Source of the DNA: Terriglobus albidus
GTDB taxonomy: Bacteria; Acidobacteriota; Terriglobia; Terriglobales; Acidobacteriaceae
DNA: 64,000 nucleotides
Reading direction: 5' to 3'
Assembly: GCF_008000815.1 (NCBI RefSeq)
Contig: NZ_CP042806.1
Location: 1,860,001-1,924,000, forward strand
Within the stretch, counting starts at the first letter, position 1; the number at the start of each line of letters is the position of its first letter. A program made the translations under genes and the position numbers. Below the pieces are notes generated by a model. It was not told the DNA's origin and made no database searches. It saw only the letters and a list, made by a program, of their open reading frames with translations. This document shows positions 5,347-10,541 of this stretch, one piece after another.

Positions 5347-6024
5347 TTACTGCTGATAGTGGCCGTTGTATTCGACGAAGAGCTCCGGGAACTGCTTCTT
5401 CAGAGCGGCGATCTTCGGCAGGTCACACACCTGGATGTAAGCATTGCCCGGGTTTTTGAGGGCATAGTCCTGGTGATAGTCCTCTCCGGGGTAGAAAGCC
5501 TGCAGGGGAGAGAGCTTGGTGACGATCTTCCCGTGGAAGACATGGGCGGCATCCAGTTGAGCAATATAGTCGGTAGCCAGCTTGCGTTGCTCCTCATTGG
5601 CGTAAAAGATGGCCGAGCGATAGGAGTAGCCGATGTCGTTGTCCTGGCGGTTGAGCTGGGTTGGATCGTGCGCAACGGAGAAGAAGATACGCAGCAAGGT
5701 ACCGTAGGTGATGCGTGCGGGATCGTAGACGACCTCAACCGATTCGGCATGATCGGTGGTCTCCGTGACAACCTGGCCGTAGTTTGCTGTCTCTTTGGTG
5801 CCGCCGGAATATCCAGCGGTGGTGTGCAGCACACCCTTGAGGCGCTGGAAGACGGCCTGTGTGCCCCAGAAGCATCCACCGGCAAAGACGGCGGTCTGGC
5901 GGCCGTGGGTGGTGGCCAGGGCGACATCGTGAGTTGGCGCGGGAATCGGCTGCTTCGTCGCTGCCCCTCCTGCGAGTGTGAACATGGCAAGCATGCCCGC
6001 CAAGACTCCTGAAAGTTTGCGCAT
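5347..6024 (-). CDS. msrA: Peptide-methionine (S)-S-oxide reductase, exported form
   Basis: MsrA reduces methionine-S-sulfoxide in proteins. The catalytic motif AGGCFWGTQAVF puts the active cysteine at C51. The family blocks GYSGG, HAESVEVVYDP, HDPTQLNRQDNDIGYSYRSAIF and YHQDY all follow. Unlike the cytosolic E. coli enzyme, this 225-residue form starts with a probable signal peptide (MRKLSGVLAGMLAMFTLAGGAA), so it likely acts in the periplasm. The only other cysteine is in QVCDLPKIA near the C-terminus, which could be the resolving residue. Ribosome site GGAGG lies nine bases before the ATG. The partner MsrB is not in the window. Confidence 0.94.
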   Translation of the reverse strand: MRKLSGVLAGMLAMFTLAGGAATKQPIPAPTHDVALATTHGRQTAVFAGGCFWGTQAVFQRLKGVLHTTAGYSGGTKETANYGQVVTETTDHAESVEVVYDPARITYGTLLRIFFSVAHDPTQLNRQDNDIGYSYRSAIFYANEEQRKLATDYIAQLDAAHVFHGKIVTKLSPLQAFYPGEDYHQDYALKNPGNAYIQVCDLPKIAALKKQFPELFVEYNGHYQQ

Positions 6025-6101: not shown

Positions 6102-7541
6102 CTACTTCGACTCCTGCTTGATGGGGAAGCTGACGGTAAACTCCGTCTTGCCCGGCTCTGAGAAAAAGCTGATGGCGCCGCCCGCCTGTTCGGCGATGCG
6201 TTGTGCGATGCCGAGTCCGAGTCCGGTGCCAACGCCCATCGGCTTGGTCGTGAAGAAGGTCTCGAAGATCTTGCCCTGGTCTTCCGGTGCAATACCGGCT
6301 CCGTTGTCCCCGATGGTGACGAAGATGCGGCCGCCGTTCGTTCCGGTCTTGACGGTGATCTCGCCTCCCTGGCTGGGCGCGGCGTCGATGGCGTTGTCGA
6401 GGAGATTGGTCCAGATCTGGTTCAGGCCCGCGGCGTGGACAGAGAGGGGAGGAAGGCCGCCGGCAAAGCTCTTTTTGATGCTTAGCTGTTTCTCGTAGAT
6501 CTTGTGTTTCAAAAGAATGAGCGTGGCATGCACGCTCTCGTTCAAGTCGATGGATTGTCCGCTCTTGCCTTCGTAGGTGTAAGTCTTTACCGCTTTGACG
6601 AGGCCGGTGATGCGGGTGATGCTCTCTTCGATGGTGCCTACCAGTTGCATGGAGCTGACCATCGAGGCGAGCCAGGCGATGATGTTTTCGACGGAGTGCT
6701 TGCCATCTTCGATTGCCTCAGCCTTGAGGCAATCCAGATCGTGGGTGGTAATGCCGATCGAGGTAAGGATCGGAGCCAGGCCCCAGGAGTTGGAGACGTT
6801 ATTCGATTCCAGCCACTCGGCTAGTGCCTCTTCGGCGTCGGCCTCTTCCAGGGAGCTCATGCACTGCGGCCGCTCGGAGGAGAAGGCGCGCTCCTGCAGC
6901 GCCCAGACGCACTCGAATTCGCGCTTATCGTGCTCTTTGGAGAATGCTTTGCCCAGCTCATGCATCAGGCGAAGGTTGCTTCGGAGCTGGCTGGCAGCGC
7001 GGCTGGCGGCTGCGCCGGGGTTATTCAGCTCGTGCATCAGACCAGCGGTGAGGGTACCCAGGGCCGCGAGCTTTTCTTCCTGAATGGAGCGGTGCTGTGC
7101 GCCGCGCAACCGCTCGTTCAACTGGCCCAGAATAAAGTTGCGCATGGCAGGGCAGCGCGCCATCAAGCCCCAGAACTCCTCTGCAGCGTAGGAGAGGATC
7201 AGGCAGTCCTCCACGGCTTCTGCCGTGACTGGGATGGCTTGTTGGGTGATGAGGGCGTATTCGCCCATGACCGCTCCAGCTTCGAGGGTGGAGATCGTCT
7301 GCGCCTGTTTGGTGCCGTAGTTGTAGTAGCCACGGACCGCCCCCTGCAGCAGTATGCCGAACAGGGTCAGCTTCTCTCCCTGCTGGGCAAGGATCTGCCC
7401 TGCAGGGACATGCACGACAGGAGCTGACGAGATACAGTTCAACTCCTCTTCGGAGAGGGTGGAGAAGACAGGCAGCGCACGAAGTCTTTCGGTAACTTCG
7501 GCGGGTGTGAGCGACACGGTCTGGGTTAGGTCAATCATCAT
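6102..7541 (-). CDS. Sensor histidine kinase with N-terminal cyclic-nucleotide-binding domain
   Basis: The 479-residue soluble kinase has no membrane segment. Residues 15-140 form a cNMP-binding (Crp-like) fold: FSTLSEEELNCISS, then PAGQILAQQGEKL and the phosphate-cassette region AGAVMGEYALI. A dimerisation/H-box follows, with the phosphorylated His in LTAGLMHELNNP, then a HATPase domain with N-box WTNLLDNAIDAAP, G1 IGDNGAGI, F-box FETFFTTKP and G2 GVGTGLGLGI. Its ATG overlaps the stop codon of the upstream receiver/thioredoxin-reductase-like gene (ATGA, 7538-7541), so the two are translated together. The probable partner is therefore the receiver domain of that fusion. A classical cAMP- or c-di-GMP-binding role is possible, but the ligand cannot be read from the sequence. 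Confidence 0.9.
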   Translation of the reverse strand: MMIDLTQTVSLTPAEVTERLRALPVFSTLSEEELNCISSAPVVHVPAGQILAQQGEKLTLFGILLQGAVRGYYNYGTKQAQTISTLEAGAVMGEYALITQQAIPVTAEAVEDCLILSYAAEEFWGLMARCPAMRNFILGQLNERLRGAQHRSIQEEKLAALGTLTAGLMHELNNPGAAASRAASQLRSNLRLMHELGKAFSKEHDKREFECVWALQERAFSSERPQCMSSLEEADAEEALAEWLESNNVSNSWGLAPILTSIGITTHDLDCLKAEAIEDGKHSVENIIAWLASMVSSMQLVGTIEESITRITGLVKAVKTYTYEGKSGQSIDLNESVHATLILLKHKIYEKQLSIKKSFAGGLPPLSVHAAGLNQIWTNLLDNAIDAAPSQGGEITVKTGTNGGRIFVTIGDNGAGIAPEDQGKIFETFFTTKPMGVGTGLGLGIAQRIAEQAGGAISFFSEPGKTEFTVSFPIKQESK

Positions 7542-9190
7542 CTGGAAAGGTTTGCGAGATATTGGTGAACGAACTGGACGGCGATAGAGCCTTCGCCAAC
7601 GGCGGAGGCACAGCGCTTGACGGAGCCATGGCGAACATCACCGGCGACAAAGATGCCGGGGACACTGCTCTCCAACAGGAACGGATCGCGGTCGATCTTG
7701 AGCTTTGCTCTCAGATCGGAAGGAAGGTCCGGACCGGCAAGGATGAAGCCGCGAGCGTCAGTCAAAACAGTCGAGGGCAGCCAATCGGTCTTGGGTGCGG
7801 CGCCGATGAAGATAAAGACAGAAGAGGTGGAACGCTTCTCTTCGCCCTTCGGGGTCTTCACGGTAATGCACTCAAGATGTCCATCGCCATCGAAACCGAC
7901 GATCTCGGTTTGGGTTTCGACCGTGATGTTCGGACGGGAGGCGATCTGATCGATCAGATACTTCGACATCGACTTTTCCAGGCCACCGCCGCGGACCAGC
8001 ATCCGTACGGAAGCGGCGTAGTTGGAGAAGTGCATGGCGGACTGGCCGGCGGAATTTGCTCCGCCTACGATGTAGACCTCTTCATTGGCGCAGGAGATGG
8101 CTTCGCTCATCGAAGCACCGTAGTAAACCCCTGCTCCGGTAAAGCGATCGGCTCCCGGGACTGCGAGCTTGCAGTAGGAGACACCCGTAGCGACCAGGCA
8201 GACGTGGCAGGAGACCTCGTTGCCGTCGGCCATCGTGATGATGTGATAGTTGTTCTCGCTGCGGACGCAGGTAGCGCGCTGGGTGAGGAACTCGGCTCCG
8301 AGACGGTTCGCCTGCAGGGTGGCCCGCTTGGCCAGCTCTTCGCCGGAGAGGCCCTGGGGGAAGCCAAGGTAGTTCTCGATGCGGGAGGAGGAGCCTGCCT
8401 GTCCACCAGGAGCCTCGGGCTCGACGATCAGGGTGCGAAGCCCTTCGGAGGCGCCGTAGACGCCAGCGGCCAGGCCGGCTGGACCTGCCCCGATGACAAC
8501 CAGGTCGTAGAACTGCTGCTCGGCCTGGGTACGGAGTCCGATCTTCTGGGCGAGTTCGAGCTGTGACGGCTGTACGAGGACATCCCCGTTCCCGAAGCAG
8601 ACCACCGGCAGGTTTTTAGCGTCGAGCTTGTGCTCTTCCAGGAGCTTGGCGGCCTCAGGATGCTGTTCCAGGTTCAGCCACTGATACTGCACGTGGTTAC
8701 GGCCGAGAAAGTCCCGTGTGGCGTGATCCTGGGGCGACCAGCGGGTGCCGATGACCCGAAGTCCCTCGAATGCAGGTTTGTAACCCTGCTGCCAGGCTTC
8801 CAGAAGGTCGTCCAGGACGGGGTAAAGCTTCTCCTCCGGCGGATCCCAGGGCTTGTTTAGGTAGTAGTGGATCTTGGCGGAGTTGATCGCCCGAATAGCC
8901 GCTTCGGTGTCCGCGTAGGCGGTCAGCAGGGCGCGCTTGGCGTCTGGATAGAGGGGGATAACGTTTTCCAGCAGTTCCACACCGGTCATACCGGGCATGC
9001 GCTGGTCTGAGAGGAAGAGTGCGACCTGCTCACCGCGTTCTTTGAGCTGTTCAGCCGTATCGAGCGCTGCTTTGCCGCTGGCGGCCCGGAGGATACGGTA
9101 TTGCTGCCCGTAATGGCGGCGAAGGTCCTGGACTACCGCTTCCAGAACGCTGGTATCGTCGTCGACTGCGAGGATGATTGGTTTGGGCAT
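7538..9190 (-). CDS. Fused response-regulator receiver / thioredoxin-reductase-like flavoprotein
   Basis: The 550-residue protein has three parts. Residues 5-125 are a receiver with acidic pocket D10-D12, phospho-acceptor D62 (LSDQRMP), T90 and K113. Residues about 143-222 resemble a glutaredoxin/thioredoxin fold with WSPQD where CxxC would be. Residues 228-550 form a FAD/NAD(P)H pyridine-nucleotide oxidoreductase with GAGPAG (234-239), GGQAGSSSRIENYLGFP and C-terminal FVAGDVR. The region that carries the redox CxxC in true thioredoxin reductases reads GVYYGASMSEA here, so both classical disulfide centres are absent. The architecture occurs in databases as fused response regulator/thioredoxin-disulfide reductase, but its chemistry should be regarded as open. 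It is co-translated with the downstream cNMP-binding histidine kinase, which suggests phosphorylation-controlled flavoenzyme activity. Confidence 0.88.
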   Translation of the reverse strand: MPKPIILAVDDDTSVLEAVVQDLRRHYGQQYRILRAASGKAALDTAEQLKERGEQVALFLSDQRMPGMTGVELLENVIPLYPDAKRALLTAYADTEAAIRAINSAKIHYYLNKPWDPPEEKLYPVLDDLLEAWQQGYKPAFEGLRVIGTRWSPQDHATRDFLGRNHVQYQWLNLEQHPEAAKLLEEHKLDAKNLPVVCFGNGDVLVQPSQLELAQKIGLRTQAEQQFYDLVVIGAGPAGLAAGVYGASEGLRTLIVEPEAPGGQAGSSSRIENYLGFPQGLSGEELAKRATLQANRLGAEFLTQRATCVRSENNYHIITMADGNEVSCHVCLVATGVSYCKLAVPGADRFTGAGVYYGASMSEAISCANEEVYIVGGANSAGQSAMHFSNYAASVRMLVRGGGLEKSMSKYLIDQIASRPNITVETQTEIVGFDGDGHLECITVKTPKGEEKRSTSSVFIFIGAAPKTDWLPSTVLTDARGFILAGPDLPSDLRAKLKIDRDPFLLESSVPGIFVAGDVRHGSVKRCASAVGEGSIAVQFVHQYLANLSR

Positions 9191-9370: not shown

Positions 9371-9994
9371 ATGGTCCGGCTGATTCTAGGAGACAACGAG
9401 GCAATTTTCCGCGCGGGAATGGCGAGGGTTTTAGTCCGCGACGATGAGACTCGCATCGTCGCGCAGTGTGGCGATGAACAACGGCTGATGGAGTCCGTGC
9501 GTACGTTCCGGGCATCGATCGTTTTGGTGGGCCGGTCTATGTGCAGCGACCTGCCCGCACTGTTCGCCGCAGTCCATGAGTCGGGTAGCCGACTGATCCT
9601 GGTCCTGGAAAAGGGCGAGGAACCGACCCAGGAGACACGGGCCAAGGCTTTTGGCGTAGTGAACCGGGACGTGGACGGCCAGGCTCTGGTGGAGTGTGTG
9701 CGCCGGGTAACCCGCGGGCAGCGGGTATTTCCGGAGACGAAGCCGTCCGCCGGGGCAAAGGATGATATGGGCCATCTCGTACGCGAGAAGCTTACGCCGC
9801 GCGAGATGCAGGTCGTGGGTCTGATCGTCCAGGGATGCCGCAACAAGGACATCGCCAACCAGTTAGGCACCAAGGAGCAGGTTGTCAAAAACTACCTGCG
9901 CAGTGTCTACGGTAAGGTCGGCGTTTCGGACCGGCTGGAGCTGGCGCTGTTCGCCATCCATCACCATGTGGTTGAGGGTGTGGCTGTTACCTAG
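9371..9994 (+). CDS. NarL/LuxR-type transcription factor with degenerate receiver
   Basis: The 207-residue protein begins MVRLILGDNEAIFRAGM. Residues 1-120 keep the NarL receiver pattern, but the acidic pair is reduced to GDN and the phospho-Asp position reads VLVGRSM instead of VLLDxxMP, so it cannot be phosphorylated in the usual way. The C-terminal LuxR HTH is intact: KLTPREMQVVGLIVQG, then NKDIANQLGTKEQVVKNYLRSVYGKVG. The ATG at 9371 is preferred (GAGAGG nine bases upstream). An in-frame upstream reading from 9101 would overlap the divergent flavoprotein gene. It is divergent from the receiver-flavoprotein/kinase pair, a natural position for a regulator of that pair. Its stop codon overlaps the convergent receiver gene by four bases. 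Confidence 0.85.
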   Translation: MVRLILGDNEAIFRAGMARVLVRDDETRIVAQCGDEQRLMESVRTFRASIVLVGRSMCSDLPALFAAVHESGSRLILVLEKGEEPTQETRAKAFGVVNRDVDGQALVECVRRVTRGQRVFPETKPSAGAKDDMGHLVREKLTPREMQVVGLIVQGCRNKDIANQLGTKEQVVKNYLRSVYGKVGVSDRLELALFAIHHHVVEGVAVT

Positions 9995-10368
9995 CTGGCA
10001 AGCGTAGCCGTGTTCGCTGACGGGCGGAGGAGCGTTTCCAGGATGGTGACCAGCTCCGAAGGATCGACTGGCTTTTCAAGATAGATGTCGGCTGTCGGTT
10101 CCGAAGACTGAAAGGCGCGGAAGACATATCCGGAGACGACGATGACCGGAGCTGTAGAGAGCTGTTTGATCTGCTGCAGCAGAAGGTGACCGTCTTCTGT
10201 GCCAAGCTGCCAGTCCATCACGATGGCGTCGAAGGGCGTCGTCCGCAGATGTGCCAGTGCCTGGGTAACAGATGGAGCCGGGATCGCCGTGTGACCGGCC
10301 CGATCCAGAATTGCGCATTTCAGAAGCAAAGCATCCGACTCATCATCGACGCAGAGAATGCGGGCCAC
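9991..10368 (-). CDS. Single-domain response regulator (CheY-like)
   Basis: The product is 125 residues, essentially only a receiver domain: VARILCVDDESDALLL with the acidic pair D8-D9, IVMDWQLG with the phospho-acceptor Asp, VIVVSGY, and YLEKPVDPSEL with the conserved Lys. The start is GTG at 10366-10368, chosen because GAGGAGG lies ten bases upstream and the receiver fold begins at once. The longer in-frame reading would run back into a dispersed repeat. There is no output domain, so it may act by protein contact or as a phosphorelay intermediate. The C-terminal end overlaps by four bases with the convergent LuxR-type gene. Its cognate kinase is not evident; the cNMP-binding kinase at 6102-7541 is a candidate. 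Confidence 0.82.
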   Translation of the reverse strand: MARILCVDDESDALLLKCAILDRAGHTAIPAPSVTQALAHLRTTPFDAIVMDWQLGTEDGHLLLQQIKQLSTAPVIVVSGYVFRAFQSSEPTADIYLEKPVDPSELVTILETLLRPSANTATLAS

Positions 10369-10432
10369 GGTTCCGGTCCCTCCTCGCTCGGGGGAATTTT
10401 CCGTTAGACAGCGGTGTGTGTCAATGCGCTCG

Positions 10433-10541
10433 AGCATTTTCCCTGTTGATGGGTGGCCCGGAAGGGTGTGCAGCGGCGTTTTCATTGCGGAAAACGCCCA
10501 TAGATATGGAAGCCCTACACGACACCTAGAGGAAAAATGCT
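10433..10541 (+). repeat. Dispersed 108-bp inverted-end repeat, copy A
   Basis: It begins AGCATTTTCCCTGT and ends with the near complement GAGGAAAAATGCT. In the middle is a second palindrome, GGCGTTTTC-attgc-GGAAAACGCC (10474-10497). The right end directly abuts the TAA (10542-10544) of the aldehyde dehydrogenase gene reading leftward. Copies B to E have the same orientation, copy F the opposite one. Confidence 0.85.

Follow-up and report, generated by a model that had tools for sequence, protein, structure and literature searches.

What does a flavoprotein built like a thioredoxin reductase (TrxR) do once its redox cysteines are gone? The question is raised by a pair of genes in the window analysed here, i.e. 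a 64,000-nucleotide stretch of Terriglobus albidus (contig NZ_CP042806.1, positions 1,860,001 to 1,924,000). One gene encodes a histidine kinase and the other a protein in which a response-regulator receiver domain is followed by a glutaredoxin-like segment and a TrxR-like module with motifs for flavin adenine dinucleotide (FAD) and for reduced nicotinamide adenine dinucleotide or its phosphate (NAD(P)H). An earlier note on this DNA had taken the absence of both CxxC pairs as special to this protein; it instead marks a widespread family. The reading preferred here, at a probability of roughly 0.55 and drawn from sequence, is that the two proteins form a two-component system in which phosphorylation would switch an NAD(P)H-flavin module that has given up disulfide chemistry.

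Loss of both cysteine pairs

The comparison covers 110 loci, drawn from 580 relatives, of which the best 80 were used, and from genomes of the window's phylum, a set that leans to close relatives. Setting aside 13 of these, namely the copy in the window itself (L081), an incomplete one (L079), L099-L108 and L110, leaves 97 receiver-fused relatives, near-copies included; alignment A1 holds 61 sequences and the query. Among the 13, both CxxC pairs are found in L108, and the TrxR site is free of cysteine in the remaining 12; L105 stands outside the 97, though its match spans residues 3-545, because its receiver is degenerate and the glutaredoxin-like segment is missing.

In the window flavoprotein, WSPQD aligns with the WCPDC of thiol-bearing cousins and YYGAS with their HFCAT stretch, as the earlier note had proposed, and alignment with solved TrxRs and the cousins places G358 and M361 at the positions of the two TrxR cysteines. 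The survey of receiver-TrxR fusions that the note had called for gives a uniform answer: CxxC is present at neither site in any of the 97 relatives, none has a cysteine within residues 356-363, and position 358 is glycine throughout. A single cysteine occurs in the glutaredoxin-like site of 4/97, and of some members fused to a cyclic nucleotide monophosphate (cNMP)-fold domain or lacking any such fusion; the other thiol-less members inspected (cNMP-fused, plain and further receiver types) likewise have CxxC at neither site. Decay of one gene is thus ruled out, and the missing CxxC is a family trait, not an oddity of the window protein. With both thiol centres gone, ordinary disulfide reduction is unlikely, and the window flavoprotein very probably does not reduce disulfides, as the note had also judged.

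The receiver residues D10, D11, D62, T90 and K113 are identical in all 97 relatives, so the response-regulator set of acidic pair, phospho-acceptor aspartate, threonine/serine and lysine is complete, in line with the note's statement on D62 and K113. The fusion that it had described holds for the receiver and for the TrxR-like part, the latter matched by Pyr_redox_2 over residues 228-534 (107.1 bits, above the Pfam cut-off). The middle segment, however, which it had called thioredoxin-like, matches the mycoredoxin model TIGR02200 (residues 145-217, E 1.3e-6, 28.7 bits against a cut-off of 89.5) and is therefore better described as glutaredoxin-like.

The flavin and NAD(P)H module

Among the relatives, the residues of the FAD loop, R400, the NSAGQ stretch and the MSxYL motif are invariant or nearly so, which speaks for a functional flavin/NAD(P)H module and makes electron entry plausible. 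The predicted model of the flavoprotein, which contains no cofactor, has a mean predicted local distance difference test (pLDDT) score of 90.4, with residues 271-278 below 50, and the fold-search matches listed for it span mainly residues 223-550. Superposition on the TrxR 3r9u_A gave Z 33.1 and a root-mean-square deviation (rmsd) of 2.2 over 304 aligned residues. The model fits the flavin-reducing form of Lactococcus lactis TrxR (5mh4, Z 32.9, rmsd 2.3, 298 aligned) but not the form in its oxidising state (5mjk_A; rmsd 8.2 at Z 29.3, 297 aligned), a difference that is suggestive only.

The partner kinase

The flavoprotein and kinase genes overlap in the window, and the pairing reported by the earlier note extends well beyond it. 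In 92/97 cases a same-strand relative of the kinase adjoins the flavoprotein gene, downstream in 79 and upstream in 11, with L001 and L073, where the two genes touch or overlap, making up the rest. Of the remaining five, four have no kinase in the stretch covered (for L074, 222 bases upstream only), and in L070 the kinase is on the opposite strand.

The kinase model has a mean pLDDT of 90.7, and a fold search with it returned ordinary histidine kinases. H170, N379/N383 and the glycines within 414-442, i.e. the histidine-kinase His, N and G boxes, are conserved; in the kinase alignment A2 (n=42) HATPase_c is matched in 42/42, PF00027 in 41/42 and Pfam HisKA in 8/42. In two Rubrobacteraceae (L040, 9664-13915, and L042, 9664-13921) three genes in tandem come after the flavoprotein gene and encode proteins of 457-488 residues, the first matching the window kinase and the next two having similar-looking starts; such an arrangement would perhaps bring several inputs to one flavoprotein.

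Distribution, wirings and origin of the family

The same glutaredoxin-like and TrxR-like body is found in three wirings, receiver-fused, cNMP-fused and plain. The window's genome itself encodes two siblings in which a cNMP-fold domain takes the receiver's place (L111, 549 residues, and L112, 577 residues), both without CxxC, together with two thioredoxin reductases that score above the family cut-off and have CATC. With one copy per genome inspected at the active sites, thiol-less members were found in 27/149 Acidobacteriota, 50/246 Actinomycetota and 20/151 Chloroflexota genomes drawn; the Chloroflexota calls rest on the glutaredoxin-like part alone for G462 and on the TrxR part alone for G413, G416, G417 (a 344-residue frame reading IYADS) and G435, and among the Actinomycetota one ambiguous genome, G374 (receiver type, TrxR site uncovered), was set aside. 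At 1e-40, 133 plasmid records are listed with a match.

Glutaredoxin-TrxR fusions that retain their pairs occur in Acidobacteriota (L114) and Actinomycetota (L211-L220). Among the Chloroflexota drawn, 24 genomes have a thiol-bearing fusion only, one of them with a damaged TrxR pair. Two intermediates, L214, which lacks one glutaredoxin cysteine, and G442, which lacks one TrxR cysteine, were counted as thiol-bearing.

Of the 55 rows of a tree, the 42 that are thiol-less fall to one side of a branch of length 0.79 with support 100/99, which becomes 100/100 once the CxxC columns are removed; removal of the same columns lowers the support for grouping the 11 thiol-bearing fusions together from 94/81 to 75/28. 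The nearest rows to the thiol-less group are glutaredoxin-TrxR fusions with CxxC, in a tree that has no ferredoxin-NADP reductase among its rows. The tree is midpoint-rooted; with a root on the trxB side, a single loss of the thiols would be the simplest reading. On the all-column tree the receiver label changes three times and the cNMP label twice, with labels taken from match ranges and annotation and, for the cNMP rows, checked with Pfam at L111 and L112. Receivers lacking aspartate at the D62 position occur in the divergent members L275, L277, L279, L280, L281, L283, L284 and L285, and also in L105, and the flavodomain is thiol-less there too.

A zinc-finger companion

Clustering of neighbouring genes showed a small UBP-type zinc-finger protein (PF02148) beside some family members. 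The UBP-type finger of eukaryotes recognises the C-terminal tail of ubiquitin. In Actinomycetota, PF02148 is present in 40/50 genomes with a thiol-less member against 15/195 others, an odds ratio of 48 with kinship ignored, and in 0/10 genomes that have the thiol-bearing cousin only. The corresponding counts are 15/20 against 16/131 in Chloroflexota (3/24 with the thiol-bearing cousin only) and 20/27 against 8/122 in Acidobacteriota, or 8/14 against 8/120 after exclusion of the window's own family.

Physical linkage is less general. The finger and flavoprotein genes lie within 2.5 kb of each other in 19 of the 75 genomes that have both, across three phyla, i.e. in 13/40 Actinomycetota, 4/20 Acidobacteriota (G019, G125, G128, G137) and 2/15 Chloroflexota (G416, G426), so that in most genomes having both they are not neighbours. 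Nine of the Actinomycetota gaps measure 1.47-1.56 kb, the size of a kinase gene. A Streptomyces fungicidicus plasmid has the finger third in a receiver-TrxR/kinase/UBP array with 4-nt overlaps at both joints, and in Rhodococcus qingshengii a UBP finger gene stands upstream of a plain member. Clusters of the form cbpM-clpB-trxA-UBP-cNMP-TrxR occur in S. angustmyceticus and Rhodococcus sp. DK17; the cNMP-type members L179 and L180 lie in such plasmid clusters, with a trxA product that has a CxxC-rich N-terminal stretch. Among ten plasmid regions, with incomplete gene tables, the finger was seen in four and not in six.

The finger of the window's genome (90 residues, 51.1 bits) matches the protein of PDB entry 2ida with E 2.8e-38, and eukaryotic ubiquitin-hydrolase fingers weakly. 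The bacterial UBP finger of 2ida is free-standing, has no flavoprotein part, and its molecule is listed as 'Hypothetical protein'.

Features of the locus and neighbouring genes

Table 1. Coordinates, in the window, of the two genes and of the elements discussed
Feature	Position	Strand	Basis
Receiver/glutaredoxin-like/TrxR-like flavoprotein, 550 residues	7538..9190	(-)	Open reading frame, profile matches, predicted model
Receiver domain, residues 1-135	8786..9190	(-)	Pfam Response_reg 6-118, above cut-off; conservation
Glutaredoxin-like domain, about residues 144-222, without active-site cysteines	8525..8761	(-)	TIGR02200 145-217, below cut-off; cousin alignment
WSPQD (151-155), glutaredoxin CxxC site	8726..8740	(-)	Alignment
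TrxR-like FAD/NAD(P)H module, residues 225-548	7547..8518	(-)	Pyr_redox_2 228-534; 3r9u_A superposition
C328-H-V-C331, CxxC in predicted strand (325-333)	8198..8209	(-)	Model, conservation count
YYGAS (356-360), TrxR CxxC site	8111..8125	(-)	Alignment
4-nt overlap of flavoprotein stop and kinase start	7538..7541	(-)	
Histidine kinase, 479 residues, N-terminal cNMP-fold domain	6102..7541	(-)	Pfam, model
cNMP-fold domain, residues 43-129, cassette arginine absent	7155..7415	(-)	PF00027, 56.3 bits; alignment
H170 in LMHELNNP, candidate phospho-acceptor	7032..7034	(-)	H in 72/72 full-length relatives; invariant in A2
Helical insert, residues 206-276, splitting the two long dimerisation-region helices	6714..6926	(-)	Predicted model
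HATPase_c domain, residues 371-475	6117..6431	(-)	Pfam

Other genes lie close to the pair. An MsrA gene (PF01625, 198 bits; 5347-6024, minus strand) follows the kinase gene after 77 bases and shares its strand; as a functional part of the system it was rejected, L001 alone of the 110 loci having MsrA at that place, and L018 has an upstream MsrA that is 71% identical. A LuxR-type regulator (9371-9994, plus strand) is divergent, and its receiver-like part seemingly has no phospho-acceptor aspartate. All 51 matches to it are divergent and upstream, but it was rejected as a general feature, being present in 50/110 loci, mostly of Acidobacteriota, with L046 as an exception. Further upstream, a stand-alone receiver protein is encoded at 9991-10485 on the minus strand, with other matches in L001, L012, L015 and L021.

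Relationship to known systems

The combination of a receiver (REC) with a TrxR is already in print: PMC5847659 describes a Mycobacterium-like REC and thioredoxin reductase combination in two Heimdallarchaeota, the same fusion as in the window protein. The excerpt consulted gives the architecture only, with nothing on missing cysteines, a glutaredoxin-like segment or a zinc-finger partner, and the excerpts of PMC8945050, PMC6843130 and PMC6599016 contain nothing on the family. Among the open-library papers listed, no report of the missing cysteines of this family or of the zinc-finger link was found.

The window protein shares its fold and its FAD and nucleotide motifs with low-Mr thioredoxin reductases, from which it differs in the replaced CxxC. 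It is the opposite of the FFTR and DDOR flavoenzymes, which retain CxxC and have lost the NAD(P)H motif (PMC9025218). The thiol-bearing fusions L114 and L211-L220 share the two-domain body with the window protein but keep the thiols (L214 less one); L114 has no receiver or cNMP domain, and the frames of L211-L220 comprise 411-479 residues. The thiol-less plasmid proteins L175, L178 and L179 have the same body without CxxC, a cNMP-fold domain replacing the receiver, and are named 'cyclic nucleotide-binding domain-containing thioredoxin-disulfide reductase'; the 'thioredoxin-disulfide reductase' part of that name is probably wrong. The receiver-type plasmid records inspected bear the name 'FAD-dependent oxidoreductase'.

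Proposed mechanism and alternatives

In the preferred reading, the kinase, with its CRP-like sensor fold, would phosphorylate D62 of the receiver, as the intact motifs of both proteins and the pairing of their genes suggest, and the receiver would gate the TrxR-descended module. The family's ancestor would already have lost the disulfide relay, in the glutaredoxin-like part as well as in the TrxR-like one, the module would still be reduced by NAD(P)H, and the reduced flavin may either pass electrons to a non-thiol acceptor or serve as a read-out of NAD(P)H or redox state. In many lineages the output may involve the small UBP-type zinc finger, as their association in genomes suggests. Elsewhere the body has a cNMP-fold domain in the receiver's place. 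The proposal can be widened to a bacterial signalling module, a thiol-stripped descendant of a disulfide reductase acting as an NAD(P)H-flavin switch, which phosphorylation or a cNMP-fold domain would gate and the UBP finger would read; in this wider form it is tentative and rather more doubtful than probable.

Several observations weigh against these proposals. The phosphate-binding cassette of cAMP-binding (CNB) domains has a glutamate and an arginine. In the window kinase the cassette, GEYALITQQAIPVTAEA, has the glutamate and no arginine. The arginine is seemingly absent in its close relatives as well and present in several Chloroflexota kinases; this variation implies that the ligand may differ or be absent. 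The earlier note's description of the kinase as cNMP-binding thus stands for the fold (PF00027) and not for the cassette arginine, and the notion that it surely senses cAMP was rejected. The D62 column reads A, N, G or gap in 8/42 Actinomycetota receiver-type copies and L105 has isoleucine there, so phosphorylation is seemingly not general across the wider family. The finger gene of the window's genome lies about 171 kb from the window genes, with no flavoprotein or kinase gene recognised beside it. Two unrelated control families, DUF892 and YceI, also co-occur in the same Actinomycetota genomes, with odds ratios of 4.8 and 4.7 for the flavoprotein and of 6.6 and 5.8 for the finger, and the zinc-finger association must therefore partly reflect genome type, which could hardly account for an odds ratio of 48. 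Finally, C328 and C331 could still pair locally in the window protein.

The alternative that survives best is that the protein is a pure sensor or signalling pseudo-enzyme, in which a flavin/NAD(P)H module without turnover would inform receiver, kinase or finger of the redox or nucleotide state. This is a serious possibility, though below even odds: the glutaredoxin-like part has been kept while its cysteine pair has gone, signalling domains of different kinds are coupled to the body, and the companion is a small zinc finger, not a metabolic gene. The tight conservation of the FAD and NAD(P)H motifs, on the other hand, fits turnover equally well.

It is unlikely, by comparison, that the protein is a TrxR-like ferredoxin/flavodoxin-NADP reductase (FNR) under receiver control. 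Such enzymes, many of them first annotated as TrxR, share with the window protein a TrxR-like fold that lacks CxxC (PMC10294844). In these enzymes a residue from the C-terminus of the second monomer is expected to stack on the re-face of the flavin. The Bacillus subtilis FNR 3lzw superposes on the window model, a monomer without FAD, with Z 26.5 and rmsd 5.8 over 305 aligned residues, a poorer fit than that of 3r9u_A, though domain orientation may be the cause, and no receiver or glutaredoxin-like part is described for these enzymes in the excerpt. Glutaredoxin-TrxR fusions are nearest in the trees, which were built without FNR rows, and no ferredoxin or flavodoxin gene was recognised among the neighbours examined, the plasmid gene tables being incomplete.

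A cysteine-rich partner, e.g. the zinc-finger protein or a nearby thioredoxin, might supply the missing thiols, which seems improbable. The finger is a recurrent companion with several CxxC pairs, two plasmid stress clusters have trxA two genes upstream, and in one further plasmid region a plain member is preceded by genes encoding a thioredoxin-domain protein and a DsbA-family protein. The finger cysteines are, however, more likely zinc ligands, given their homology to eukaryotic UBP fingers, and a thioredoxin-type gene is present in 3/10 annotated plasmid regions, none of them with a receiver-type member.

That the protein is a normal thioredoxin reductase using the unusual pair C328/C331 is very improbable, for although the CHVC is present in the window protein, and so formally answers the earlier note's refuting case of a cysteine pair elsewhere in the fold, both residues occur in just 24/97 relatives, the stretch is a predicted strand, the relative L077 has no cysteine in its whole sequence, and the protein scores 197.8 bits against the TrxR model TIGR01292, whose cut-off is 343.45. 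The low score taken alone is weak evidence, since the thiol-bearing L114 also falls short of the cut-off with 304.1 bits.

Implications

If these proteins are signalling flavoproteins, as the preferred reading has it, the thioredoxin-disulfide reductase names given to members of the family would misdirect models of redox homeostasis. The association with the zinc finger offers a direct and testable entry to the function both of the flavoproteins and of bacterial UBP zinc fingers. Were the more tentative proposal of a flavin switch read by the UBP finger to prove true, bacterial UBP fingers would gain a function, and many annotated thioredoxin reductases would be redefined.

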